IMG/VR virus record: IMGVR_UViG_3300047319_000914
Location: 1-45,317 of that record
Reading direction: 5' to 3' (one strand)
DNA: 45,317 bases
Source: a virus
Under the pieces are notes generated by a model that did no database searches, was not told the DNA's origin, and was given only the letters and a program-made list of their open reading frames with translations. This document shows positions 4,901 to 45,317 of the stretch, one piece after another; position 1 is the stretch's first letter; the number at the start of each line of letters is the position of its first letter. The translations under genes and the position numbers were made by a program.

Positions 4901-5665
4901 TTAGACCGTTGTGAGGGCCACCCGACGCTTGTCGGCCATCTTCCCGTAGCCCCATTCACCCTGGGCACGAAGAGCCGAGATAGCTTTCGCCGCCTCGCTC
5001 CCCGCCGGCTGGGGTCCATGAATCAAGAGACCGAAGTCCGGCCCGTGCTTCATGGCGTGGGTGTCATCGTGGTCCAAGACCAGGCCGTTGGCCTCGGCCT
5101 CACTCAGCACCACAATCGCCGACCGCAAGTGGTACTCGTCGATCAGGTGGTCGTCCTTTCCACCACGGCTCGCGGTGGGAACAAAGTTGGTAACCAGACC
5201 AGGCGAGTGTCCGTCGCCCACTTCCACCAAGCGGGCCACCCAGAACTTGAGGGCCTTCGTGTAGAAGTAGAACAGACGCTCGGACTCCGTCTTCGCGACC
5301 TCCAACCACGCATCGAAGTACGACTGGCTGAAGAAGTCGCCACTGACGTGCGGCCTCACAATCTTGGCCTTGCCCGGAAGGCTCGCAAGGATGAGTTTGG
5401 TCATGCCCTGACGACTCAGGCCCTTCAGGGCCTCATAGTTGCCCCAGCGGGACTCGCGGACGTTTGGATACAGAGCCTCTTGGCTCGCCGAGAAACACCG
5501 GAACGTCGTGTGGCGTCCATCCTTGATCTTGCCCGTCGCCCGGTCCGATTTGCTCAGACATTGCTTCGCAAAGGGGCAGGAGTAACCGGCCGGTAGACTG
5601 AGGGTGAAGACGTCCTTGCTGAGCTTGGCATTGTTGTTGCCAAACCGAAGAAGTTTCCGTACCAT
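4901..5665 (-). CDS. Gp88-family phage protein
   Basis: 254 residues. The order LSLPAGYSCPFAKQCLSK (about residues 27-44), then FRCFSASQEALYPNVR, RW-N and PHVSGDFFSQSYFDAW matches the Gp88 family seen in mycobacteriophages and many other phages, whose molecular function is not established. The two Cys of CPFAKQC and the Cys of FRCF could bind metal. ATG 5665 (MVRKLLRFGN) is taken as start because GAGGAG lies 12 bases upstream; a second ATG at 5686 overlaps that site. Confidence 0.75.
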   Translation of the reverse strand: MVRKLLRFGNNNAKLSKDVFTLSLPAGYSCPFAKQCLSKSDRATGKIKDGRHTTFRCFSASQEALYPNVRESRWGNYEALKGLSRQGMTKLILASLPGKAKIVRPHVSGDFFSQSYFDAWLEVAKTESERLFYFYTKALKFWVARLVEVGDGHSPGLVTNFVPTASRGGKDDHLIDEYHLRSAIVVLSEAEANGLVLDHDDTHAMKHGPDFGLLIHGPQPAGSEAAKAISALRAQGEWGYGKMADKRRVALTTV

Positions 5666-5711
5666 AGGCGTGTTCTGACTCCTCATTCAAAATGGGTTTG
5701 GGGGTCGAACA

Positions 5712-15709: not shown

Positions 15710-15868
15710 GGGCTTCTCCTGCTTGAGTTTTGCTGATACACCACTGGTAGTGGGCCGAGATTTGGAGATACACACGATGTGCCGCACCAGCGTCGGCCGC
15801 AAAAGGCCGTTTGGAGCGGTAAAAACCACGTTTGTTGCGATGTTTTGGCTCTCTGGAGCCCGAAACTT

Positions 15869-20321: not shown

Positions 20322-20330
20322 GGGTGTATT
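20322..20330 (+). promoter_or_regulatory. GGTGTATT-type late promoter motif, head of plus operon
   Basis: GGGTGTATT, nine bases before ATG 20339. If it acts as a -10 element, as proposed for its sister copies, the transcript would be nearly leaderless for the first gene. It lies in the 45-base gap between divergent genes, at the head of the plus-strand block. Confidence 0.5.
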
Positions 20331-23077: not shown

Positions 23078-23122
23078 ATGAACCAAGGACCAGTCCGTGA
23101 AAATTCCCCCTGGGCACACTGA
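23078..23122 (+). CDS. Short upstream reading frame before the sigma-like gene
   Basis: MNQGPVRENSPWAH with AGGAG eight bases before the ATG. Its 3' part overlaps the sigma-like start at 23097 in another frame. Either a translation-coupling leader for the sigma-like gene or an accidental frame. Confidence 0.35.
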   Translation: MNQGPVRENSPWAH

Positions 23123-23714
23123 AGCAAGTGTGCTCGAAGCGATTGAGAAGTCCGTCGCCATCCTGGCTCCGAGTTTTGTTTTTGGCTACTTCGACGTCGA
23201 AGACATCAAGCAAGAAGGGCGACTCGAGGCCTTCAAGGTCTTGGAGAAAGAGAAGTACGACCCCGACCGGCCGCTCGCCAACTTCCTCTACACGTCTATC
23301 CGCAACAAGTACGTCAATCTGCTGCGTGACAAGCTGCGGCGAAACGACCCTCCGTGTCAGCCGTGCCACATCGGCGATTGCTGCAACCCTACCGGTAACG
23401 CCTGCGAGCCATACATCGCTTGGCGAGATAGGAACGCCGCGAAGTCAAATCTGATGAGGCCGCTGGATCTGGCACATGTCGCGGATGAGAACGAACGTCG
23501 GACCAGACTGGAATCGACTGTCGTTAGCGACGTCGAGACAGACGAGATTGTCAAACTCATCGACGCGAAACTCTCAGTCGAACTCCGCTCCACCTACCTC
23601 CAGATGCGGGCCGGCGTTTCGGTCCCCAAGGTCAAGCGTAAACAAGTCGAGGACGCTGTCCGAGACATTATCAGGGGCTCCCTCGAATGGCAGAACACAA
23701 ACGAGGACGACTAG
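23097..23714 (+). CDS. Phage sigma factor-like protein, gp55-type candidate
   Basis: 205 residues. Residues about 28-65 read FDVEDIKQEGRLEAFKVLEK, then FLYTSIRNKYVNLLRDKLRR, close to region 2 of sigma70 factors (DLIQEG-LG--KA--KFDP---F-TYA---IR). A C-terminal HTH-like stretch (SVELRSTYLQMRAGVSVPKV) could be region 4. Between them a Cys-rich CQPCHIGDCCNPTGNAC insert is unusual. Starts at GTG with AAGGA seven bases upstream. By analogy with T4 gp55 it may direct transcription of late genes, perhaps at the GGTGTATT motif; that is inference. Confidence 0.65.
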   Translation: MKIPPGHTEASVLEAIEKSVAILAPSFVFGYFDVEDIKQEGRLEAFKVLEKEKYDPDRPLANFLYTSIRNKYVNLLRDKLRRNDPPCQPCHIGDCCNPTGNACEPYIAWRDRNAAKSNLMRPLDLAHVADENERRTRLESTVVSDVETDEIVKLIDAKLSVELRSTYLQMRAGVSVPKVKRKQVEDAVRDIIRGSLEWQNTNEDD

Positions 23715-24559
23715 GCCGGAGCGAGCGGAACTTCATCGTCTCTAACGTCGGTCGCCTTAGCGTAGATGAAATCGCCGCGAAGATTAATCGCACGGCGGAA
23801 ACCGTGGCTCAGTTCATTCGGCTCAACGTAAAGCCCGCTGATGCTAAGTCAGCCTTTGCTGAGGACGAGATCGAACAGGTCGAGATCCGGCAGTCACTTC
23901 GCGGCTGCGAGAAGTGGAAGCGGCTCACCCAGGAACTCACCAAAGAAGAAATCACTTTCTTTGAGGAGGAGTACATCAAGCTCATGACCCAGTTCAAGGG
24001 TGATGTGCTTGCCACGGAAGAGACCCAGGTCTTCGATGCCATCAAGCTCGAGATTCTGAAGAGCCGCAACATGATCGAGCGGCGTAAGGCCCGCGACGAC
24101 ATCACTCGCCTGGAGAAGATGCAGGAGGACTTCCTGAGCCAGTTCGGCGGTAACCCGTCGAACATGGACGACGACCAGAAGACCCTGGCCCTGAACATGG
24201 AGTCCCAGATCCAGGCCGCACGCTCGGCCGAGGCCTCACGCACGAACGATTACGTGAAGCTTCAGGAGCGTCTGGATGCCCTGATGCGGACCATGAAGGC
24301 CACCCGCGACCAGCGAGTAAAGCAGATCGAGCAGTCCAAGATTTCGTTCCTGGGCCTCATCAAGATGCTTCAGGACCGCGAGGTCCAGGCCTCTGAGGGT
24401 CGTCAGATGGAACTGATGAACATGGCCACTGACAAGGAATACGACCGCTTGGGAAGGCCCACGAAGTACGACGACGGCAACGAAGATTCCCCAATCCTAT
24501 CCGCCGAGACAGTTGACCTCGGCCCACTCGAAGACGGAGATGCAGAAGGTGATGCTTGA
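23687..24559 (+). CDS. Probable terminase small subunit-like protein
   Basis: 290 residues. N-terminal basic helix-turn-helix (RLSVDEIAAKINRTAETVAQF), a long charged coiled coil (EEYIKLMTQFKGDVLATEE onward) and an acidic tail. This HTH-plus-coil layout and the position ahead of the large terminase fit a small terminase subunit, which binds the packaging site. No direct motif proves it; a transcription or scaffolding role is the alternative. The end overlaps the next gene by eight bases. Confidence 0.5.
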   Translation: MAEHKRGRLGRSERNFIVSNVGRLSVDEIAAKINRTAETVAQFIRLNVKPADAKSAFAEDEIEQVEIRQSLRGCEKWKRLTQELTKEEITFFEEEYIKLMTQFKGDVLATEETQVFDAIKLEILKSRNMIERRKARDDITRLEKMQEDFLSQFGGNPSNMDDDQKTLALNMESQIQAARSAEASRTNDYVKLQERLDALMRTMKATRDQRVKQIEQSKISFLGLIKMLQDREVQASEGRQMELMNMATDKEYDRLGRPTKYDDGNEDSPILSAETVDLGPLEDGDAEGDA

Positions 24560-25061
24560 GTTCCTCTGCTGGCTTTTGGCCAGCCTGGTGGCGATGAGTT
24601 TCATTGAGTACGTGGCCCATCGGTGGCCCATGCACAGTCGGCGTTTGTATCGACAGTTCAGCTTCTTCCGTGGGCCGTTCGAGCGACATGCCGTGCTCCA
24701 TCACGGCCGGTACTTCAAGACGTTCGACCACGAACCGGACATCGCGGCCAAGTACATCAGCATGTGGCTGAATCCCGTCGAACACCTGATCGGGCTGTCA
24801 CCAGTTTGGCTGGGCATCGCCTGGTTCGTCTCCCTAATCGGTGGCATTACGTTCGCGGTCGTCATTGCACTCCACGCCATCGTATGGAGCATGGTTCACT
24901 TCGAGATGCACGAGCCGACAGACGGATGGCTCTCGCGTGCGTGGTATTTCCGCTATTTGCGGGAGTACCATAAGACGCACCACGACCATCCGGGCACCAA
25001 CTTCAACGCGGCCATTCCGGGCATGGACTGGCTGTTCGGAACCTATCGGAGACCAGAATAG
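24552..25061 (+). CDS. Fatty acid hydroxylase-superfamily membrane protein
   Basis: 169 residues. Histidine clusters of the membrane di-iron hydroxylase/sterol desaturase family are present: HRWPMH, HAVLHHGRYF, H-FEMHE and YHKTHHDHPG. Hydrophobic segments LVAMSFIEYVA and WLGIAWFVSLIGGITFAVVI separate them. Catalyses O2-dependent lipid or carotenoid hydroxylation in known relatives; substrate here unknown. An auxiliary metabolic gene unusual in a packaging region. Start between ATG 24552 and ATG 24540 is uncertain; the shorter is chosen for its overlap with the previous stop. Confidence 0.75.
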   Translation: MLEFLCWLLASLVAMSFIEYVAHRWPMHSRRLYRQFSFFRGPFERHAVLHHGRYFKTFDHEPDIAAKYISMWLNPVEHLIGLSPVWLGIAWFVSLIGGITFAVVIALHAIVWSMVHFEMHEPTDGWLSRAWYFRYLREYHKTHHDHPGTNFNAAIPGMDWLFGTYRRPE

Positions 25062-25063
25062 AC

Positions 25064-25549
25064 GTGCGGACAATTGAACTAACGCAGGGGCAAGTTGCTT
25101 TGGTGGACGACGCGGACTACGACCGTTGTTCCGCATTCAAGTGGTGTGCCAATTGGATCAAGGACCATTATAGGCCAGTGCGAACCGACTGTAGCGAGGG
25201 GAAGCGTCGTCGCATCTACCTTTATAGGTTCGTCATGGGGGTTACGGACAAGGACATTCTGGTAGACCACAAAGACGGAAATGCCCTGAATTGCGTGCGT
25301 AGCAATTTGCGAGTCTGTAATTTTGCTCAGAACAACCGCAACAGGAAGAAACCAGTATCTAAAGAGTCTAGCTACAAAGGTGTCAGGAAGCATCGACACG
25401 GACGCTGGCGTGCCAGCATCAAGGTAAATGGCGTGACAATCAACCTTGGAGTGTTTGATGTCGAGCTAGACGCGGCTCGTGCCTATGACGCTGCGGCGTC
25501 GAAGCATTTCGGCGAGTTCGCGAAGACCAACCTGGAGTCGGCAGCATGA
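25064..25549 (+). CDS. HNH endonuclease with AP2-type DNA-binding domain
   Basis: 161 residues, GTG start. LVDHKDGNALNCVRSNLRV is the HNH signature (H, N, N). The C-terminal part SSYKGVRKHRHGRWRASIKV with DVELDAARAYDAAASKHFGE is an AP2/integrase-like DNA-binding domain, the standard fusion for phage homing endonucleases. Mobile; likely a selfish insert between the hydroxylase and GMD genes. Overlaps the next gene by four bases. Confidence 0.85.
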   Translation: MRTIELTQGQVALVDDADYDRCSAFKWCANWIKDHYRPVRTDCSEGKRRRIYLYRFVMGVTDKDILVDHKDGNALNCVRSNLRVCNFAQNNRNRKKPVSKESSYKGVRKHRHGRWRASIKVNGVTINLGVFDVELDAARAYDAAASKHFGEFAKTNLESAA

Positions 25550-26586
25550 AGACCGCGTTGATTTGGGGGATTACTGGCCAGGATGGAAGCTACCTGGCGG
25601 AACTGTTGCTGTCAAAAGGATACAACGTAATTGGCGTCGCTCGCCGCGTTTCTGTTCCAACTGACGTGCGAATCCGTCACTTGTTGCCCAATGAGCATTT
25701 CAAGGTTGTCGATGGTGATGTCACTGACGCAATGTGCGTCTATCGTCTAATCGTTGACCACGATCCGGATGAAACATACAATCTTTCGGCTCAGAGCCAC
25801 GTCAAGATTTCCTTTGACGAAGCCTGTCACACCTGGGACGTGACGGCGAAGGGTGCCCTCAACATCCTCGAGGCGATTCGCCATTCCACCCGACCTCAGG
25901 CTATTCGCTTCTACCAGGCGAGCAGCAGTGAGATGTTTGGGGCGTCGTATTCCCTCCGCTGGACCGAACGCGGCACTCACAGCTATAACGCGACAACGGA
26001 CCCTCTCGAGGGGGTTTACACAGAGGTCGCGTTTCAGGACGAGGCTACTCCTTTCGCTCCCAACTCTCCCTACGCCATCGCCAAGCTCGCCGCCCACAAT
26101 GCGGTCCGAGTCTATCGGGAGGCCTATGGTCTCCACGCTAGTTCCGGCATCCTCTTCAATCACGAGAGCGAACGCCGCGGAGAGAACTTCGTCACGCGGA
26201 AAATCAGTAAGTACGTGGCGAACCTGCCCTTCCCGCTTGAGAAGCTACGTTTGGGCAACCTTGAGGCCTGTCGTGACTGGGGCCACGCTGAAGACTTCGT
26301 CAAGGCTATGTGGTTGATGCTTCAGCAGGAAAAGCCTGATGACTACGTAGTGGCCACGGGAGAGACGCACACGGTCCAGGACTTCCTAAAAGCAGCATTC
26401 GAGGTCGTTGGCATTCATGATCCGACGCCTCACTGGCAGCAAGACAGCACCCTGTATCGGCCGTGCGAGGTCAACTTCCTGAGGGGAGACGCGAGCAAAG
26501 CCCGCAAGGTTTTGGGCTGGGAGCCCAAGATCGACTTCAGCAGCCTTGTCAAGCGAATGGTGTTATCTGATATGTGGGCACGATGA
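25546..26586 (+). CDS. gmd: GDP-mannose 4,6-dehydratase
   Basis: 346 residues. NAD(P)-binding GITGQDGSYLAE at residues 9-20, the catalytic Ser-Ser-Ser-Glu (SSSEMFG, about 125-131) and YAIAK (YxxxK, about 176-180). GILFNHESERRGENFVTRKI is diagnostic of Gmd. Converts GDP-mannose to GDP-4-keto-6-deoxymannose, a precursor of fucose and rhamnose sugars, so it may alter capsule or lipopolysaccharide, or feed glycosylation of DNA or virion. About 30 extra residues lie between SSSEMFG and the YxxxK (TERGTHSYNATTDPLEGVYT region), unlike the usual short loop. Confidence 0.9.
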   Translation: MKTALIWGITGQDGSYLAELLLSKGYNVIGVARRVSVPTDVRIRHLLPNEHFKVVDGDVTDAMCVYRLIVDHDPDETYNLSAQSHVKISFDEACHTWDVTAKGALNILEAIRHSTRPQAIRFYQASSSEMFGASYSLRWTERGTHSYNATTDPLEGVYTEVAFQDEATPFAPNSPYAIAKLAAHNAVRVYREAYGLHASSGILFNHESERRGENFVTRKISKYVANLPFPLEKLRLGNLEACRDWGHAEDFVKAMWLMLQQEKPDDYVVATGETHTVQDFLKAAFEVVGIHDPTPHWQQDSTLYRPCEVNFLRGDASKARKVLGWEPKIDFSSLVKRMVLSDMWAR

Positions 26587-29617: not shown

Positions 29618-29625
29618 GGTGTATT
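29618..29625 (+). promoter_or_regulatory. GGTGTATT motif, upstream of portal gene
   Basis: TCGGTGTATTTGCTT, 49 bases before the portal GTG. Located just after the terminase stop, in a 62-base gap. One of five plus-strand copies ahead of virion-related starts. Confidence 0.55.
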
Positions 29626-29674: not shown

Positions 29675-31987
29675 GTGAAGAAGCCAGCCAATCCTGCCAC
29701 CAAGCCTGTCGTGCCTGATGCTCCCATGTTCGTCACATGGAATGACGAGCGGAGCCAGGCACTCGCCTTTCACCAGGCCTCGCGGGCTCTTCAACGGGTC
29801 GAGCCTATCGTCCGTTCTCACGGTTCCAACATCTTTTCCGACATCGCCCCCGGTAACGTCTCGATCCGCGACGGTTTCGACCGCCAGGACTACGAGAACT
29901 ACCGGACGGGGGAAATGCTCCCGGTCAAGTCGAAAGACATCATGGCCGCTTGCCTACGGTCCTACGACCGGATTGGCCTGGTCAAGAATGTCGTTGATTT
30001 GATGGCGGACTTCGCCACCCAAGGCATTGGGCTCTACCATCCCAACGAGCGAATCGAGAAGTGGCACAAGGAGTGGTTCCGGCGGATCAATGCTCGCGAA
30101 CGCAGCGAACGGTTCCTGAACCTGCTCTATCGGACCGGCAACGTCCTGATCCGACGTCAGTTCGCCAAGATTCCCGTCAAGGTCGAAGAAGAAATGCGGC
30201 GGGCGACGGCCGACATGGACGCCGACATCCCCGTCCCCGACCAGAAGGTCGAAAAGCGGCAGATCCCCTGGAAGTACATCTTCCTCAATCCGCTCGCGGT
30301 CGAGGTCATGTCTGAGGAGTTGGCCGTCTTCGTTGGCCCCGACGCCTTCGTTTTCGGCCTGAAGATTCCCAAGCCGCTCGGCAACAAGATCCGGACCGCC
30401 AAAGGCAAGCATGAAAAGGCCATGCTCGCCAAGATCCCAAGCGACATTCGCGAGTTGGTCACCAGGGGAGAGAGTTTCATCCCCTTGGACATGGATAAGG
30501 TCAAGGCCTTCTACTACAAGAAGGACGATTGGGAAGTGTGGGCCAAGCCCATGCTTTACTCGGTCCTGAGCGACCTCAATCTGCTTCAGAAGATGAAGCT
30601 GGCTGACCTTGCCGCTCTCGACGGTGCCATCTCCTGCATTCGCGTGTGGAAGCTCGGATCGCTCGATCACAAGATCATGCCGACTGAGGTTGCCATCAAC
30701 CGTCTCGCCGAGATGTTGATGAACAACGTTGGCGGCGGCGTCATGGACTTGGTCTGGGGTCCGGAAATCGACTTGGTCGAGACCTCGACTGAAGTCCACA
30801 AGTTCCTCGGCAACAACAAGTATGAGCCGGTCCTCAACGCCATCTTCCAGGGCCTCGGCGTCCCGCCTTCTTTGGCAGGGAATGGCACGGGCGGCTTCAC
30901 CAACAACTTCATTTCGCTGAAGACGCTGACCGAGCGTCTCGAGTACGGTCGGCAGATCCTCCGCATGTTCTGGGAGGAAGAGCTTCGCATCGTCCAGAAG
31001 GCGATGGGATTCCGCTTCCCGGCCACGCTTGTGTTCGACCGGATGGTCCTGAGTGACGAGGCCGCTGAGAAGCAACTCCTCATCAACCTGGCCGACCGCG
31101 ACATCATCTCCTGGGAGTGCATCATCGAGCGATTCGGAGAGAACCCGGAGATTGAAGAGGCTCGTCTTCGTCGCGAGGCCCGCAAGCGGAAGAACGGTCA
31201 AATGCCCAAGAAGGCCGATCCGTTCCACGATGGGCAGCAAGACTTTGGTCTGAAGAAAATCTTCGCTCAGACTGGCGTTATCAGCCCGAGTCAGGCCGGC
31301 GTCGAACTGGAAGAGCAGGAAGAGGGAGACAAGTCCCTTCTCGAGCAGACGGCCGATCAGCAGGTGAAGCAGGCCAAGATCCAGAACCAGGCCACGCAAC
31401 AGCAAAACGACCACCAGTTCCGGACCGAGAAGCTGCAACTCAAGCATGGCGTTCACCCGGCCCAGGTTGCTCTTAATACTCCGACGCCTGGGACCAAGAA
31501 GGGCCAGCCCGGTCAGGGTCGTCCCAAGAACTCCAATGACACCAAGCCGCGGAAGCAGAAGCGGGTCACACCGCGGACCTCTGCGTCCTTCTTTGAGGCG
31601 ACCGCCTGGGCATCCAACGCTCAGGCCAAGATCCTCCAGGTTCTCGGCCCGGCCTATTTGAAGTCGGTCGGCAAAACGACTCACCGCGAGTTGACGGAAG
31701 AGCAGTCTCGTAACTTCGAGGAGTTGCGGTTCCGCACGCTCTGTCAGTTCGACATTCACGACGACCTCGACAAGTCCAGCGTCGTCAAGGCGGCGACGGG
31801 CTCACTCGAAGTGCCAACTCAGGTCATGCAACTGCTCCGGGCAACCGTGGCGAAGCACGTCGAAGCCAACAACAGCAAAGAGCCACCAGTCGAAACCCTG
31901 CGAGGTTATCAGGCCGGCGTCTACGCATTCTGGAAGGGCGAATACGAGGATGAAGAGGCCGGTGATTCTGCTGACGTGCTTTCGTAG
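29675..31987 (+). CDS. Portal protein
   Basis: 770 residues, GTG start. Position directly after the large terminase, length, and an SRALQRVEPIVRSHG start, with RIGLVKNVVDLMADF, then LLYRTGNVLIRR and long helical regions, fit portal proteins of T4-like or large phages. The C-terminus is rich in Gln and Lys (EEQEEGDKSLLEQTADQQV) and extends beyond typical portals. No short motif alone is diagnostic, so the call relies on context. Confidence 0.8.
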   Translation: MKKPANPATKPVVPDAPMFVTWNDERSQALAFHQASRALQRVEPIVRSHGSNIFSDIAPGNVSIRDGFDRQDYENYRTGEMLPVKSKDIMAACLRSYDRIGLVKNVVDLMADFATQGIGLYHPNERIEKWHKEWFRRINARERSERFLNLLYRTGNVLIRRQFAKIPVKVEEEMRRATADMDADIPVPDQKVEKRQIPWKYIFLNPLAVEVMSEELAVFVGPDAFVFGLKIPKPLGNKIRTAKGKHEKAMLAKIPSDIRELVTRGESFIPLDMDKVKAFYYKKDDWEVWAKPMLYSVLSDLNLLQKMKLADLAALDGAISCIRVWKLGSLDHKIMPTEVAINRLAEMLMNNVGGGVMDLVWGPEIDLVETSTEVHKFLGNNKYEPVLNAIFQGLGVPPSLAGNGTGGFTNNFISLKTLTERLEYGRQILRMFWEEELRIVQKAMGFRFPATLVFDRMVLSDEAAEKQLLINLADRDIISWECIIERFGENPEIEEARLRREARKRKNGQMPKKADPFHDGQQDFGLKKIFAQTGVISPSQAGVELEEQEEGDKSLLEQTADQQVKQAKIQNQATQQQNDHQFRTEKLQLKHGVHPAQVALNTPTPGTKKGQPGQGRPKNSNDTKPRKQKRVTPRTSASFFEATAWASNAQAKILQVLGPAYLKSVGKTTHRELTEEQSRNFEELRFRTLCQFDIHDDLDKSSVVKAATGSLEVPTQVMQLLRATVAKHVEANNSKEPPVETLRGYQAGVYAFWKGEYEDEEAGDSADVLS

Positions 31988-32699
31988 GTACTTCGAGCTT
32001 TCGCAGGCGGTTGATCGGATCTGGGAGGCTTTCGAGGCCGGAGAGTTCAAGTTCGAGCCACATATCTGGATCGTTTGGGCTCAACCCGAAGTGTGCCGGC
32101 TCTGGTTCTTTCAAAAGCTCATCAAAGAAGGTCGAGTCCAGCGACTGCTAACGCGGCCGGCTCTGCCTGATGAAACTCCTGGCGTGGCCACGAGCCATCC
32201 GGAGTCGCACAACCTTCGTCTCGGCCTGAAGACCATCGCCGAGGAGTACTGGTACGACGACGTCTACGTGATTGGTCAGGCGGGCGACGTTCTGCCTCAT
32301 CATGGCACGTACAAGTTCGTTGACGACAAGATTACTGGCCAAGACCCGCACCAGGCGGTCTTGTTTCACTGGAACAATGGCGTCGCGATTCAAGGAGTCT
32401 GGCACACCAACTTCTTCGCAGTGCCCACAGAAGAGCAGTACTGGCCCCCAGTCTCTCCTGCTGATGAACAAGATGTCCTCGAAGCCCAGTGGGGCAAACA
32501 ACTGAATCGCCTTCAGCCGCCGGCCATCCTCAAGACTCACAACAACAACGAGAAGCGATTCGTACACCGGCACTTGTCTGAGCATCAAGCTCCTTGGCCA
32601 ATCTTCCCACAGTTTGGTGACAGCAAAGCCTCGCTTTTCATCGTCGGCCACAAGTCTTGGTGGCGGCGGTTCTGCGATTGGCTCTTACGCCGGCCCTAG
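31950..32699 (+). CDS. Hypothetical protein, possible glycosyltransferase-like
   Basis: 249 residues. ATG overlaps the last 38 bases of the portal gene. PVILLTCFRRYFELSQAVDR resembles the nucleotide-binding start of GT-A glycosyltransferases, and YVIGQAGDVLPHHG could hold an acidic site, but no DxD is clear. Trp-rich in the middle and C-terminus. Alternatively a structural accessory protein. Low confidence in function, good confidence it is a gene. Confidence 0.55.
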   Translation: MKRPVILLTCFRRYFELSQAVDRIWEAFEAGEFKFEPHIWIVWAQPEVCRLWFFQKLIKEGRVQRLLTRPALPDETPGVATSHPESHNLRLGLKTIAEEYWYDDVYVIGQAGDVLPHHGTYKFVDDKITGQDPHQAVLFHWNNGVAIQGVWHTNFFAVPTEEQYWPPVSPADEQDVLEAQWGKQLNRLQPPAILKTHNNNEKRFVHRHLSEHQAPWPIFPQFGDSKASLFIVGHKSWWRRFCDWLLRRP

Positions 32700-32701
32700 T
32701 C

Positions 32702-32709
32702 GGTGTATT
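32702..32709 (+). promoter_or_regulatory. GGTGTATT motif before the prohead operon
   Basis: CGGTGTATTTCTCG, 34 bases before ATG 32744, in a 44-base gap between coding regions. Confidence 0.55.
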
Positions 32710-32743: not shown

Positions 32744-33079
32744 ATGGCTCTCATTACCGTTTCTCACGACACGAACTCGAAGGAGATGAAGGTCTCCATC
32801 GACGGCAAGGAACTCTCCAACGTCCGCGGCGTGAACATCTACCCGTCGTACGAGGACGAAGACGAGTACCGCTGTGTGATTTCCACGATGTCTGAAGACG
32901 AAGACACGGAAATCAAGACTTTCACTCAGATCATCGCGAGCGAAACGCTCCAGGCCAAGGACGCCGTTCAGAAGGCCCAGGCTTCCGAGTGCGTCGATCA
33001 TCCCGGCTTCGTGGTCGCGAAGGACAACACTTCCAGCAAGGCCTTCTCGGACATCGCCGGCTTCTTCTCCAAGAGCTAA
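32744..33079 (+). CDS. Hypothetical virion-associated protein
   Basis: 111 residues from ATG 32744, GAAAGGA site. LITVSHDTNSKEMKVSIDG with repeated acidic patches (YEDEDEYRC; MSEDEDTEIK) and a Phe/Ser end (AFSDIAGFFSKS). Placed before the prohead protease; a small core or inner-head protein is likely by context. Confidence 0.6.
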   Translation: MALITVSHDTNSKEMKVSIDGKELSNVRGVNIYPSYEDEDEYRCVISTMSEDEDTEIKTFTQIIASETLQAKDAVQKAQASECVDHPGFVVAKDNTSSKAFSDIAGFFSKS

Positions 33080-33084
33080 AGACC

Positions 33085-34701
33085 ATGTGGCAGATCCCCG
33101 TATACGCAGCAGAACGCGACGCAGGCATTGCCGACCTAGTTCGGTCTACTGCCTCGTCCGTTGTCTGTGCCGTTGCGAAGACTGTTGAGCCGTTCAAGGT
33201 TAACAGCACGTTTGCCACCGCCCAACTTCCAGGGGGTGTCGTCACGGCTGCTGTAGGCGACTTCGATCTTCACTACTTGAAGACGATTCTCGTTACGGCC
33301 GGCGTTTGGAACAAGAACGACGACGTGTTCGATCCAAAAGAGGCTTGGGCAGCCAAGGCTACTCCCGAAGACAAGCCCGTCAATTGGGAGCACAACTGCA
33401 AAGACATCATCGGCCACATAACGGGCAACTACGCCATCAATGAGCAGGGAAAAGTCCTTGCGGATGAAACGGTCGTCGATGACCTTCCTGCTAAGTTCCA
33501 CATCGTAACTGCCGCGGTCCTCTACAAGCACTGGGCAGACAAAGACCTTCAAGAGCGGATGGACAAGACCCTGGCGGAAATCGCTGAGGGCAAGTGGTTC
33601 GTCAGCATGGAGGCGTTGTTCCGTGGCTTTGACTATGCGGTTGTCGGCAAGGACGGCACCAAAGAGGTCGTAGCTCGAAATGACAAGACGTCATTTCTTA
33701 CCAAGCATCTTCGTGCGTACGGCGGCACCGGCAATTACCAAGAGATGAAAGTCGGGCGTTTGCTCAGAAACATCGTGTTTTCTGGCAAAGGCCTCGTACG
33801 CAACCCCGCCAATCCTGAGAGCGTCATCCTCGACGACGCTGAACCTTTCAGTCCCACTTCTGCAAAAGTCTTTGAGCATTTCAACGATGTTTTGCAAGAG
33901 CAGGTGTATTCAACTTTGGCGGTCGAAGAGACCGCTTCAAATCAACAGGAGAGCGAAAAGGCAATGGCCACCGAACTTGAAAACCTTCAGAAGCAACTGA
34001 CCGAGAAGCAGGTCGAGATCGACCGTCTTCAGGCTTCGCTGCGTGACAACGACGTGAAGCAGATCAAGGCCCAGGTCGAGACCCTCCAGGCCGACATCAA
34101 GGTCAAGGACGACGAGATCAAGAAACTCGACGAGGCTAAGGCCAAGGTCGAAGCGGATCTCAAGACCAAGGCCGACGAGACCGTCGCCCTGGCTGCGAAG
34201 CTCGAAGAGAACGACAAGGCTCACAAGGCCGTCGCCGAGAAGCTCGCTGTGATCGAAGCCGACAAGAAGATTGCCGACCGCATCGCCAAGGTCAAGGCTG
34301 CCCTCAAGGTCGATGAGACGAAGGAAGACGTCGCCAAGAACGCCGTCGCCCTCGCCACGTCGCTGATGGACCTGCCTGACGACAAGTTCGATGCCGCTAT
34401 CAAGGCGATGGCCGGCACGAACATGATGACGGCCCCCGCTCCTACGAACGACCCTCAGAACGGCAATTCGACTGTGCCCCATGGCACCGCGAAGACCGCT
34501 CCGAAGGCCACGAACCTGCCGGCTCCCATGGCTTCCGCCTCGGCTTCCGAGGACGCGAACGCTGACACCGCCAATCTCGATGGCGTCGAACCCGAGCAGG
34601 CCGCTGCGGCACTTTCGGTGGAAACGCCCGAATCCGGTGTAAATGAAGTCCAGAAGGCCATTGCCTCTTACTTCGACTGCGAAGTCGAAGACGCCAAGTA
34701 A
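33085..34701 (+). CDS. Prohead core protease fused to scaffold
   Basis: 538 residues from ATG 33085. HNCKDIIGHITGNYAINEQG, AAVLYKHWADKDLQERMDKT, GKWFVSMEALFRGFDYAV and TKHLRAYGGTG then VGRLLRNIVFSGKGLVR are the blocks of the T4-type prohead core protease found in large phages. From residue about 294 a long coiled coil (QLTEKQVEIDRLQA onward) is the scaffold, followed by an Ala/Thr-rich linker and an acidic tail. Digests or shapes the inner scaffold in capsid assembly. Confidence 0.85.
   Translation: MWQIPVYAAERDAGIADLVRSTASSVVCAVAKTVEPFKVNSTFATAQLPGGVVTAAVGDFDLHYLKTILVTAGVWNKNDDVFDPKEAWAAKATPEDKPVNWEHNCKDIIGHITGNYAINEQGKVLADETVVDDLPAKFHIVTAAVLYKHWADKDLQERMDKTLAEIAEGKWFVSMEALFRGFDYAVVGKDGTKEVVARNDKTSFLTKHLRAYGGTGNYQEMKVGRLLRNIVFSGKGLVRNPANPESVILDDAEPFSPTSAKVFEHFNDVLQEQVYSTLAVEETASNQQESEKAMATELENLQKQLTEKQVEIDRLQASLRDNDVKQIKAQVETLQADIKVKDDEIKKLDEAKAKVEADLKTKADETVALAAKLEENDKAHKAVAEKLAVIEADKKIADRIAKVKAALKVDETKEDVAKNAVALATSLMDLPDDKFDAAIKAMAGTNMMTAPAPTNDPQNGNSTVPHGTAKTAPKATNLPAPMASASASEDANADTANLDGVEPEQAAAALSVETPESGVNEVQKAIASYFDCEVEDAK
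33903..33910 (+). promoter_or_regulatory. GGTGTATT motif inside the protease gene
   Basis: CAGGTGTATTCAACT, 53 bases upstream of internal ATG 33964, at the junction of protease and scaffold parts. Spacing like other copies of the motif. Confidence 0.5.
33964..34701 (+). CDS. Internal scaffold protein start within the protease gene
   Basis: In-frame ATG 33964 is preceded by AGGAGAGCGAAAAGGCA, a strong ribosome site, and by a late-type motif at 33903. It would give a 245-residue scaffold (MATELENLQKQLTEKQ) identical to the C-terminal half of the fusion, as lambda C/Nu3 does. Expression of this form is inferred. Confidence 0.55.
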   Translation: MATELENLQKQLTEKQVEIDRLQASLRDNDVKQIKAQVETLQADIKVKDDEIKKLDEAKAKVEADLKTKADETVALAAKLEENDKAHKAVAEKLAVIEADKKIADRIAKVKAALKVDETKEDVAKNAVALATSLMDLPDDKFDAAIKAMAGTNMMTAPAPTNDPQNGNSTVPHGTAKTAPKATNLPAPMASASASEDANADTANLDGVEPEQAAAALSVETPESGVNEVQKAIASYFDCEVEDAK

Positions 34702-34740: not shown

Positions 34741-35214
34741 ATGGCACTCAAGGGTGACCGCATCGTTCTCGAAACCGACATCACTCAGACCTGTGAGTCG
34801 GTTGCATCCCGCGGCGTCGTGCTGTGCTACTCGGTGGCCGGCTCTGGTGCTGGCCTGGGTGACACGGCTGGCAAGGCGGATCTGTTCGCGAGCCCGAGCG
34901 GCAAAGTCCCGGTCGGCCTCCTGATGAACGATGTCGTGAGCATCGATCAGACCCGCTACCACAAGAACTTCCAGAAGGATGAGACCATCATCCACGAACG
35001 TTGCACGCTGCTCCGTAAGGGCCGCATTGTGACGGATCAGGTCACCGGCTCGCCGACCGCTGGCTCGACGGCCTACCTGACCACGAGTGGCGTGCTCACG
35101 CCGACCGTTTCGTCCACGGGCGGGCTTGTGGCAACCCCGAAGGTTGGTCAGTTCGCGACGAGCATCGACGAAGACGGCTACGCGGCCGTGAACATCAACC
35201 TCCCTGTCGTCTAA
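34741..35214 (+). CDS. Capsid decoration-like protein
   Basis: 157 residues. MALKGDRIVLETDITQTCE, RGVVLCYSVAGSGAG, VGLLMNDVVSIDQTR and SIDEDGYAAVNINLP. Small, beta-rich and located between the protease/scaffold and major capsid genes as head decoration or DUF2190-like proteins are. AGGAG site before ATG. Confidence 0.65.
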   Translation: MALKGDRIVLETDITQTCESVASRGVVLCYSVAGSGAGLGDTAGKADLFASPSGKVPVGLLMNDVVSIDQTRYHKNFQKDETIIHERCTLLRKGRIVTDQVTGSPTAGSTAYLTTSGVLTPTVSSTGGLVATPKVGQFATSIDEDGYAAVNINLPVV

Positions 35215-35272: not shown

Positions 35273-36286
35273 ATGGCGACTCGCAAGCGTCCGACCCCGG
35301 AGATGAATGCACTCCTGAAGCGGGCCGGTCACACCGACTACAACACTGCCATTGCCGCCCAGCGGGAATTGGCAACGGCTCTTACCCTGCCGCTGAAGCA
35401 GGGTGTCATGAAGGGCGACATCATCGCCGGCATCTTCGAGCCGATCAACTTCGAGCCGGGTGCGAGCGTCGAGTTCCCTCTCGACTTCCTGTCGCCGGGT
35501 TCTGAGAAGAACTTCGTGGCCTACACGATTCCGAACCACGGTCGGATTCCTGAACGTCACGTTGAGGGCGACTACCTCATGGTGCCGACCTACGATGTCG
35601 GCTCCAGCATCGACTGGAACCTGAAGTACAGCCGCGACGCCCGCTGGGACGTTGTGGGTCGTGCGATGCAGGTTCTCGAGGCGACGTTCGTCCGGAAGGC
35701 GAACAACGACGGTTGGCACACCATCCTGGCTGCCGGCGTCGGCCGCAACACGGTCGTCTACGACGATGCCGCGACCTCCGGCCTCTTCACGAAGCGTCTC
35801 ATCGCCCTGATGAAGACGACCATGCGTCGGAATGCGGGTGGCAACAGCACCAGCATCAACAAGGGCAAGCTCACGGACATCTACATGTCTCCCGAGGCAA
35901 TCGAGGACATGCGTTCGTGGGATCTGACCCAGATCGACGACCTGACTCGTCGGGAAATCTTCCTCGCGGGTGGTGACGATGGCGTCAGCCCGATGGGCAA
36001 GGTCTTCCAGGTCGTGGTTCACGACATCGACGAACTCGGTGTGAACCAGGAGTACGAACTGTACTTCGCGAACACCCTCGGTGGCACGCTCCCGACCGAC
36101 AAGGCGGAAGTCGTGGTCGGCCTGGACCTCTTCAATCGCGACTCGTTCGTGATGCCGATTCGGGCTGAGGTCGAAATCTTTGAAGATCCGACCTTCCATC
36201 GCCAGCGTCGGGCCGGCATGTACGGCTGGGGCGAGCACGGCTTTAGCGTCCTGGACAGCCGCCGCGTCCTGATGGGTGCCCTCTAA
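35273..36286 (+). CDS. Major capsid protein (HK97 fold)
   Basis: 337 residues. Ends the head operon before a strong terminator. VEFPLDFLSPGSEKNFVAY, GRIPERHVEGDYLMVPTYD and MGKVFQVVVHDIDEL with NRDSFVMPIRAEVEIFEDP show the beta-strand and spine-helix plan of HK97-type capsid proteins. The N-terminal arm is short; cleavage by the nearby protease cannot be seen. Context is decisive. Confidence 0.8.
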   Translation: MATRKRPTPEMNALLKRAGHTDYNTAIAAQRELATALTLPLKQGVMKGDIIAGIFEPINFEPGASVEFPLDFLSPGSEKNFVAYTIPNHGRIPERHVEGDYLMVPTYDVGSSIDWNLKYSRDARWDVVGRAMQVLEATFVRKANNDGWHTILAAGVGRNTVVYDDAATSGLFTKRLIALMKTTMRRNAGGNSTSINKGKLTDIYMSPEAIEDMRSWDLTQIDDLTRREIFLAGGDDGVSPMGKVFQVVVHDIDELGVNQEYELYFANTLGGTLPTDKAEVVVGLDLFNRDSFVMPIRAEVEIFEDPTFHRQRRAGMYGWGEHGFSVLDSRRVLMGAL

Positions 36287-45004: not shown

Positions 45005-45014
45005 ATTATACACC
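45005..45014 (-). promoter_or_regulatory. Late motif variant before the HNH gene
   Basis: Minus strand GGTGTATAAT, about 31 bases before GTG 44973. It resembles both the phage motif GGTGTATT and an extended sigma70 -10 (TG-TATAAT). Also near TTGACA but with only a 7-base spacing, so not a normal two-box promoter. Confidence 0.5.
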
Positions 45015-45063: not shown

Positions 45064-45071
45064 GGTGTATT
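45064..45071 (+). promoter_or_regulatory. GGTGTATT motif before the tail-tube-like gene
   Basis: GCGGTGTATTCACTA, 49 bases before ATG 45121, with AAGGAGAG as ribosome site in between. Same spacing as at the portal gene. Confidence 0.55.
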
Positions 45072-45120: not shown

Positions 45121-45317
45121 ATGTCGTCGAATCGCAGAATTTTCTATGCCGTGCAACAGGCCGGTGTTGCCGCAGACGGTACAAATACGTTCACGTCAAT
45201 CCACGGCCTTCAGAGTGTCGGTATCAACACTCGCTTCAACTTGGAGCAGGTGTTTGAGATCGGTCAAATCGCGATCTATCAAAACATCGAAAATATTCCC
45301 GACATCGAAATCACGGC
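45121..45317 (+). CDS. Tail-tube-like structural protein, 3' end outside window
   Basis: First 65 codons visible: SSNRRIFYAVQQAGVAADGT, FTSIHGLQSVGINTRFNLEQ and VFEIGQIAIYQNIENIPDIE. The IFYAVQ start and the ENIPDIEIT phrase are seen in tail-tube or major tail proteins of large myophages and siphophages. AAGGAGAG before the ATG. The call depends on this short fragment and context. Confidence 0.6.
   Translation, partial: MSSNRRIFYAVQQAGVAADGTNTFTSIHGLQSVGINTRFNLEQVFEIGQIAIYQNIENIPDIEIT

Follow-up and report, generated by a model that had tools for sequence, protein, structure and literature searches.

The head-gene block and its fused protease-scaffold gene

Here, we describe a head-gene block in a phage sequence (the window, that is, the whole stretch of 45,317 nucleotides analysed) in which protease and scaffold are encoded by one open reading frame (ORF) that also holds a putative nested scaffold start and a promoter-like element (Table 1). 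The ORF is single and unbroken in the window and in 107 of 107 nonredundant relatives. It follows the genes for a portal protein and a small protein, and precedes those for a cement-like protein and the putative major capsid protein. A search for relatives of the small 111-aa gene found none. Between it and the portal gene lies a 249-aa ORF of unassigned family (31950-32699), which overlaps the portal gene end.

Table 1. Positions and supporting evidence of the features discussed in the text
Feature	Position	Strand	Evidence or comment
GGTGTATT	20323..20330	+	without confident downstream gene start
Sigma-like protein, candidate motif reader	23097..23714	+	Sigma70_r2, fold, synteny
GGTGTATT	29618..29625	+	57 nt 5' of portal gene
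Portal protein	29675..31987	+	phrog_2739, 8.2e-8
GGTGTATT	32702..32709	+	42 nt 5' of 111-aa gene
111-aa gene between portal and protease	32744..33079	+	position of T4 67/68; codon adaptation 0.74
Fused protease-scaffold ORF, 538 aa	33085..34701	+	relatives by tblastn; fusion in 107/107 checked
Protease domain, residues 1-253 (folded core ~60-250)	33085..33843	+	AF2 model, VIA-align matches
GGTGTATT, putative late-promoter element (-10 type) inside the ORF	33903..33910	+	relatives, wobble conservation
AGGAG, Shine-Dalgarno sequence of the nested start	33947..33951	+	two reading phases among the 107/107 relatives that keep it
Nested scaffold gene, 245 aa (MATELENLQ...)	33964..34701	+	AF2 coiled coil; codon adaptation step
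Cement-like head protein	34741..35214	+	Pfam PF22758 Phage_cement, 4.7e-5 (weak, below curated cut-off)
Putative major capsid protein	35273..36286	+	synteny; 78% identical relative in L081
GGTGTATT	45064..45071	+	57 nt 5' of an ATG with AGGAG, at the window end

In an AlphaFold2 (AF2) model of the ORF product, built on 36 relatives, residues ~60-250 form a globular domain predicted with confidence, ~252-288 are a disordered linker, and 287-407 make up one long continuous helix. The top VIA-align match of the protease domain is the T4 prohead protease gp21 (5jbl; Z 8.9, 127 residues, rmsd 3.0), and the next are herpesvirus assemblins (Z ~6-8.5, ~125 residues, rmsd ~3-4); Foldseek alone placed mainly herpesvirus proteases at the top, with weak E-values (0.03 at best). 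Going by the model, the domain is a capsid protease with a fold like that of T4 gp21 and perhaps like that of herpesvirus assemblin. Its His103 and Ser174 are invariant in the alignment and are candidate catalytic residues. Pfam, PHROGs and PDB sequence searches assigned the protease domain to no family, all matches being to the coiled coil; a phrog_95 integrase match to the ORF was dismissed because it falls within the coiled coil.

When the protease was compared by tblastn with the 50,697 phage records of INPHARED, no relative was found, and the only match of the capsid protein in those records was the major head protein of Bacillus phage G (22.5%). Yet at least 600 stretches related to the protease-scaffold protein are present in IMG/VR. 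Thus, the ORF belongs to a large, widespread and uncultured phage group.

A nested start conserved at the domain boundary

A first-pass annotation had proposed that an in-frame ATG at 33964, with AGGAG nearby, lies at the protease-scaffold boundary. All of this is borne out: the ATG is in frame with both the ORF start at 33085 and its end at 34701, AGGAG lies 12 nt before it, and the residue that it encodes (Met294) stands after the modelled globular domain and linker, at the beginning of the coiled coil. The same annotation had set the absence of the ATG from close relatives as a test of the idea. The start is kept with a strong Shine-Dalgarno sequence throughout, a Shine-Dalgarno core of at least 5 nt accompanying the junction Met in 107 of 107 nonredundant relatives versus 54 of 1113 other internal Met codons. 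The junction GGAG is in reading phase 2 in 84 relatives and in phase 0 in 23; being read through differing codons across phases, it is therefore conserved as DNA and not as protein. Its spacing to the ATG is 12 nt in the window and in its relative L001, and 6-9 nt in other relatives; the cement and capsid genes of the window and L001 have Shine-Dalgarno spacings of 10-11 nt. As judged from these alignments, the nested start is close to certain to be a conserved feature.

Codon usage changes within the ORF as well. With the capsid and cement genes as the reference set, codon adaptation in the window is 0.46 for the protease, 0.30 for the linker, 0.71 for the scaffold (0.81 in its first half) and 0.79 for the capsid gene, and the step is located at the nested ATG. 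The difference between protease and scaffold was reached by none of 5000 within-amino-acid permutations. Of the 88 relatives for which a capsid gene was available, all 88 score higher in the scaffold than in the protease, 42 of them significantly within amino acids. Codon usage in this way gives indirect support to a free scaffold that would outnumber the fusion.

A promoter-like element inside the gene

The first-pass annotation had also pointed to GGTGTATT as a promoter motif 53 bases ahead of the nested ATG. The distance is exact, and the promoter role gains support from wobble conservation, from use of the motif at late genes in relatives and from a conserved sigma-like gene. Upstream of the nested start, a GGKGTA/GTGTAT element is present in the window's branch and in four distant relatives. 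The form GG[TG]GTA occurs 25-61 nt 5' of the junction ATG in 24 of 107 relatives, and GGKGTA is found in 27 of 111 junction intervals versus 8 of 1221 control intervals; in most relatives the internal motif is one or two bases off the consensus, and L082 carries GTGTATAT at the junction. In L083, L084 and L092, GGKGTA stands ahead of the junction ATG in another reading phase. Since the phase of the element differs by lineage, it is the DNA and not the protein that is conserved.

The wobble test used 12 AT-rich relatives, in which 127 columns were able to carry a wobble G in all members. Across the whole ORF, an invariant wobble G is seen in just 3 of the 127: both codons of the motif and that of the Shine-Dalgarno sequence. 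The result is unchanged with one member per subclade. The motif codons are mostly rare ones (TCG makes up 3-9% of Ser codons and GGG 2-8% of Gly codons in most AT-rich relatives). As a negative control, one marine set had only the Shine-Dalgarno codon prominent (11/12), with nothing at the motif position; in a second set, whose Shine-Dalgarno sequence is in the other phase, a downstream Gln codon stands out, again with nothing at the motif position. A constraint at the protein level was ruled out as the cause of the motif by the wobble and reading-phase evidence.

On the tree, two changes account for the internal motif, which the deep branches carry and which an 81-row marine clade, L003 and L022 lack. 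Its presence on deep branches suggests that the internal promoter could be ancestral in the phage group and have been lost in the marine clade. That clade keeps the nested start and lacks the internal motif, so the arrangement itself can do without the promoter. For the window, these comparisons make GGTGTATT at 33903-33910 a likely promoter.

The motif at other genes and its candidate reader

The window contains five copies of GGTGTATT, every one on the plus strand, versus 0.54 expected; a count of 5 was not reached in any of 100 shuffles. Three of the five sites lie 42-57 nt ahead of a gene start (the portal gene, the 111-aa gene and the ATG at 45121). The motif stands ahead of the small pre-protease gene, at the same position, in five relatives (L002, L004, L008, L011 and L068), and in 52 of 65 cases GTGTAW lies ahead of the relatives' protease gene. 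Ahead of the cement and capsid genes of relatives, GTGTAW is found in only 5 of 102 and 4 of 98 cases, respectively. In the window, where no exact copy occurs between 33911 and 45063, no further motif follows the internal one ahead of cement and capsid. The cement-like gene, having no motif of its own upstream, is hence likely to be read from the internal promoter.

Matches to GGTGTATT with at most one mismatch number 10 in the window versus 18.3 expected. The one-mismatch versions are depleted across positions 1-45317 (5 seen versus ~18 expected), as if near-sites of the motif were selected against. On the minus strand, GGTGTATA (45007-45014) and GGTGTATC (15735-15742) have a Shine-Dalgarno sequence and start 41 and 33 nt downstream, respectively, and the element may serve minus-strand genes too.

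With too few genes to work on, neither the window by itself nor the L001 contig yielded the motif in a de novo k-mer search, and larger genomes of relatives were therefore used. Blind searches upstream of gene starts gave GGTGTAT in a 141-kb relative (6 observed versus 0.24 expected) and enrichment of GGTGTAA/TGGTGTA in a 206-kb relative. In the 141-kb relative, the GGTGTATT sites are concentrated in the structural block, on one of its strands. In pooled marine loci (e.g. L013, L017, L030 and L049), TTTTGTGTATAA lies upstream of gene starts and TGTGTATA was observed 42 times versus 0.73 expected; TTTTGTGTATAA, the probable late promoter of the marine clade, has a GTGTAW core in common with the near-clade motif. 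The blind search also returned another upstream motif, ACGAATAA, which is found ahead of many short genes of early appearance in L161-L177 (relatives G011 and G012), with 29 sites in G011, mostly at 0-16 kb and on the minus strand. It resembles a distinct class of promoter, for early or middle genes.

The candidate reader of the late motif is the sigma-like protein. Sigma70_r2 (sigma region 2) is found in 22 of its 22 relatives, and its fold matches sigma domains with Z 8-9, T4 gp55 (7d7c) being among the matches at Z 7.9. The gene is syntenic, ~8 kb upstream of the protease gene in relatives, and co-occurs with the motif. This pattern points to the protein as the factor that probably reads it.

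Proposed mechanism and alternatives

We regard it as probable that a late promoter read by a phage sigma factor lies inside the ORF and, together with the nested start, leads to two products, with free scaffold in excess. The ORF would give two proteins with a common C-terminus: the full-length protease-scaffold, made in small amounts from the start at 33085 on a long mRNA, and the free scaffold, made in larger amounts from the ATG at 33964. The nested start would be in use throughout the family. In the window's branch, GGTGTATT would act as a late promoter inside the linker-coding part of the ORF, probably read by host RNA polymerase equipped with the sigma-like protein that the phage itself encodes. 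Transcription from immediately downstream of 33910 would give an mRNA for scaffold, cement and capsid that lacks the protease, and free scaffold would therefore exceed protease-scaffold. The internal promoter should thus feed the cement and capsid genes too, and not the scaffold alone. Because both scaffold forms have the coiled coil in common, a few protease-scaffold molecules would co-assemble into the core and so carry the protease into it. Here we infer the transcription start, the sigma recognition and the product ratio; start, Shine-Dalgarno sequence and motif are, by comparison of the relatives, conserved at the DNA level.

What else might the element be? One option is nesting at the level of translation only, as in lambda C/Nu3 and Mu, with the ATG used on the long mRNA and GGTGTATT being incidental coding for Val-Tyr or Gly-Tyr. 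The start is universal and the motif is not, as the 81-row marine clade illustrates, and Mu has a known in-frame scaffold start within its protease gene (PMC4378225). However, the wobble G invariant in both motif codons, the other reading phase of the motif in L083, L084 and L092, and the identical motif upstream of other late genes make this option unlikely. Alternatively, GGTGTATT could work at the RNA level ahead of some genes, as an RNA element or a processing site, for which distances of 23-61 nt to the gene starts would be just as suitable as for a promoter; the conserved sigma-like gene that accompanies the motif, and the GTGTAW core common to the marine and near-clade motifs, argue against this, and we consider it very improbable.

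A real promoter might also serve mainly the capsid and cement genes, the scaffold coming along and the nested start being minor. The near-lack of own motifs at those genes in relatives, and the lack of any between 33911 and the capsid gene in the window, would agree with this. The junction Shine-Dalgarno sequence and ATG are nonetheless invariant even in relatives without the motif, and the scaffold codons are capsid-like, so that we find such a division of roles hard to credit. Finally, the ORF could be a relic of two genes, such as 21 and 22 in T4, that became joined when a stop codon was lost, its internal start and promoter being disused. T4 does have the identical gene order, with a late promoter overlapping the gene 21 end. 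The wobble positions are kept at ~40% protein identity and the start in 107/107 relatives, and on the wobble and reading-phase evidence the relic explanation was rejected; we give it next to no credence.

Relation to known systems

In phage lambda, the start of the Nu3 scaffold is nested in frame in protease gene C, and to our knowledge Nu3 is without a separate promoter. The first-pass annotation had drawn a parallel to this pair for a nested gene with its own promoter; the parallel stands for the nested start and fails for the promoter, for which UL26/UL26.5 of herpesviruses and the promoter of T4 gene 22 are the nearer counterparts. The nested start is all that C/Nu3 and the window have in common, the window's protease fold matching gp21 and assemblin. 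Among Mu-like phages (Mu, PaMx73), an in-frame internal start with a Shine-Dalgarno sequence is reported in the protease gene, and the passage on it describes no internal promoter (PMC4378225).

In herpesviruses, UL26/UL26.5 is a protease-scaffold fusion with a nested in-frame scaffold gene and a common 3' end (PMC4498786), and the UL26.5 promoter lies inside the long ORF, according to the title of Liu and Roizman 1991, cited in PMC4498786. The fusion with a nested gene, as in HSV-1 and PrV UL26/UL26.5 and the CMV assembly-protein nested genes, is found in the window too. The likeness of the window's protease to assemblin would be one of fold, not of sequence. Unlike the herpesvirus case, the window belongs to a bacterial virus, with a putative late element of bacterial type, a candidate phage sigma and a Shine-Dalgarno sequence.

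The order of the T4 head genes is 20-67-68-21-22-23, and T4 and the window thus have the order portal, small core genes, protease, scaffold and capsid in common. The window differs in having one small gene and, in addition, the cement-like gene and the 249-aa ORF; above all, protease and scaffold are separate genes in T4 and one ORF in the window. T4 late promoter elements stand before the portal gene and directly before the scaffold gene, places analogous to those of the window motifs. The T4 element TATAAATA, 35 nt before gene 22 and overlapping the gene 21 end, is different from GGTGTATT. The protease fold and the sigma-like gene, with gp21 and gp55 among their respective fold matches, also recall T4, and we claim no homology of the scaffolds. 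With ~580 gp22 to 55 gp21 (PMC9958956), T4 reaches a comparable scaffold to protease ratio with separate genes.

By analogy, the window system would work like UL26/UL26.5 with T4-like parts, and we claim membership in neither. We think the chances somewhat better than even that it is a bacterial-virus counterpart of UL26/UL26.5, that is, a nested scaffold gene with its own sigma-specific promoter inside a fusion ORF. A nested scaffold gene with an internal promoter is otherwise known from herpesviruses; a search of one literature collection turned up no phage scaffold that has a promoter inside the gene, although a negative search of this kind does not prove that none exists. If the proposal is true, the window system stands between T4 (separate genes with a promoter between them) and the herpesviruses (fused and nested, with an own promoter). 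Viruses of one capsid lineage may then be able to keep proteases few and scaffolds many without encoding the two in separate genes. A bacterial system for a nested, promoter-bearing scaffold gene would also be relevant to whether herpesviruses and phages share the arrangement or reached it by convergence. In addition, the analysis gives this large, uncultured group of phages a putative late-promoter motif and a likely sigma factor.

Other genes of the window

Elsewhere, the window encodes a fatty acid hydroxylase family protein (24513-25061; PF04116, 1.2e-9), here in a phage record, and an AP2/HNH homing-endonuclease-like gene (25064-25549) ahead of a GDP-mannose 4,6-dehydratase gene (25546-26586; PF16363, 6.3e-111). 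A phage Gene product 88 family protein (PF17338, 1.5e-35) is encoded on the minus strand at 4901-5686.
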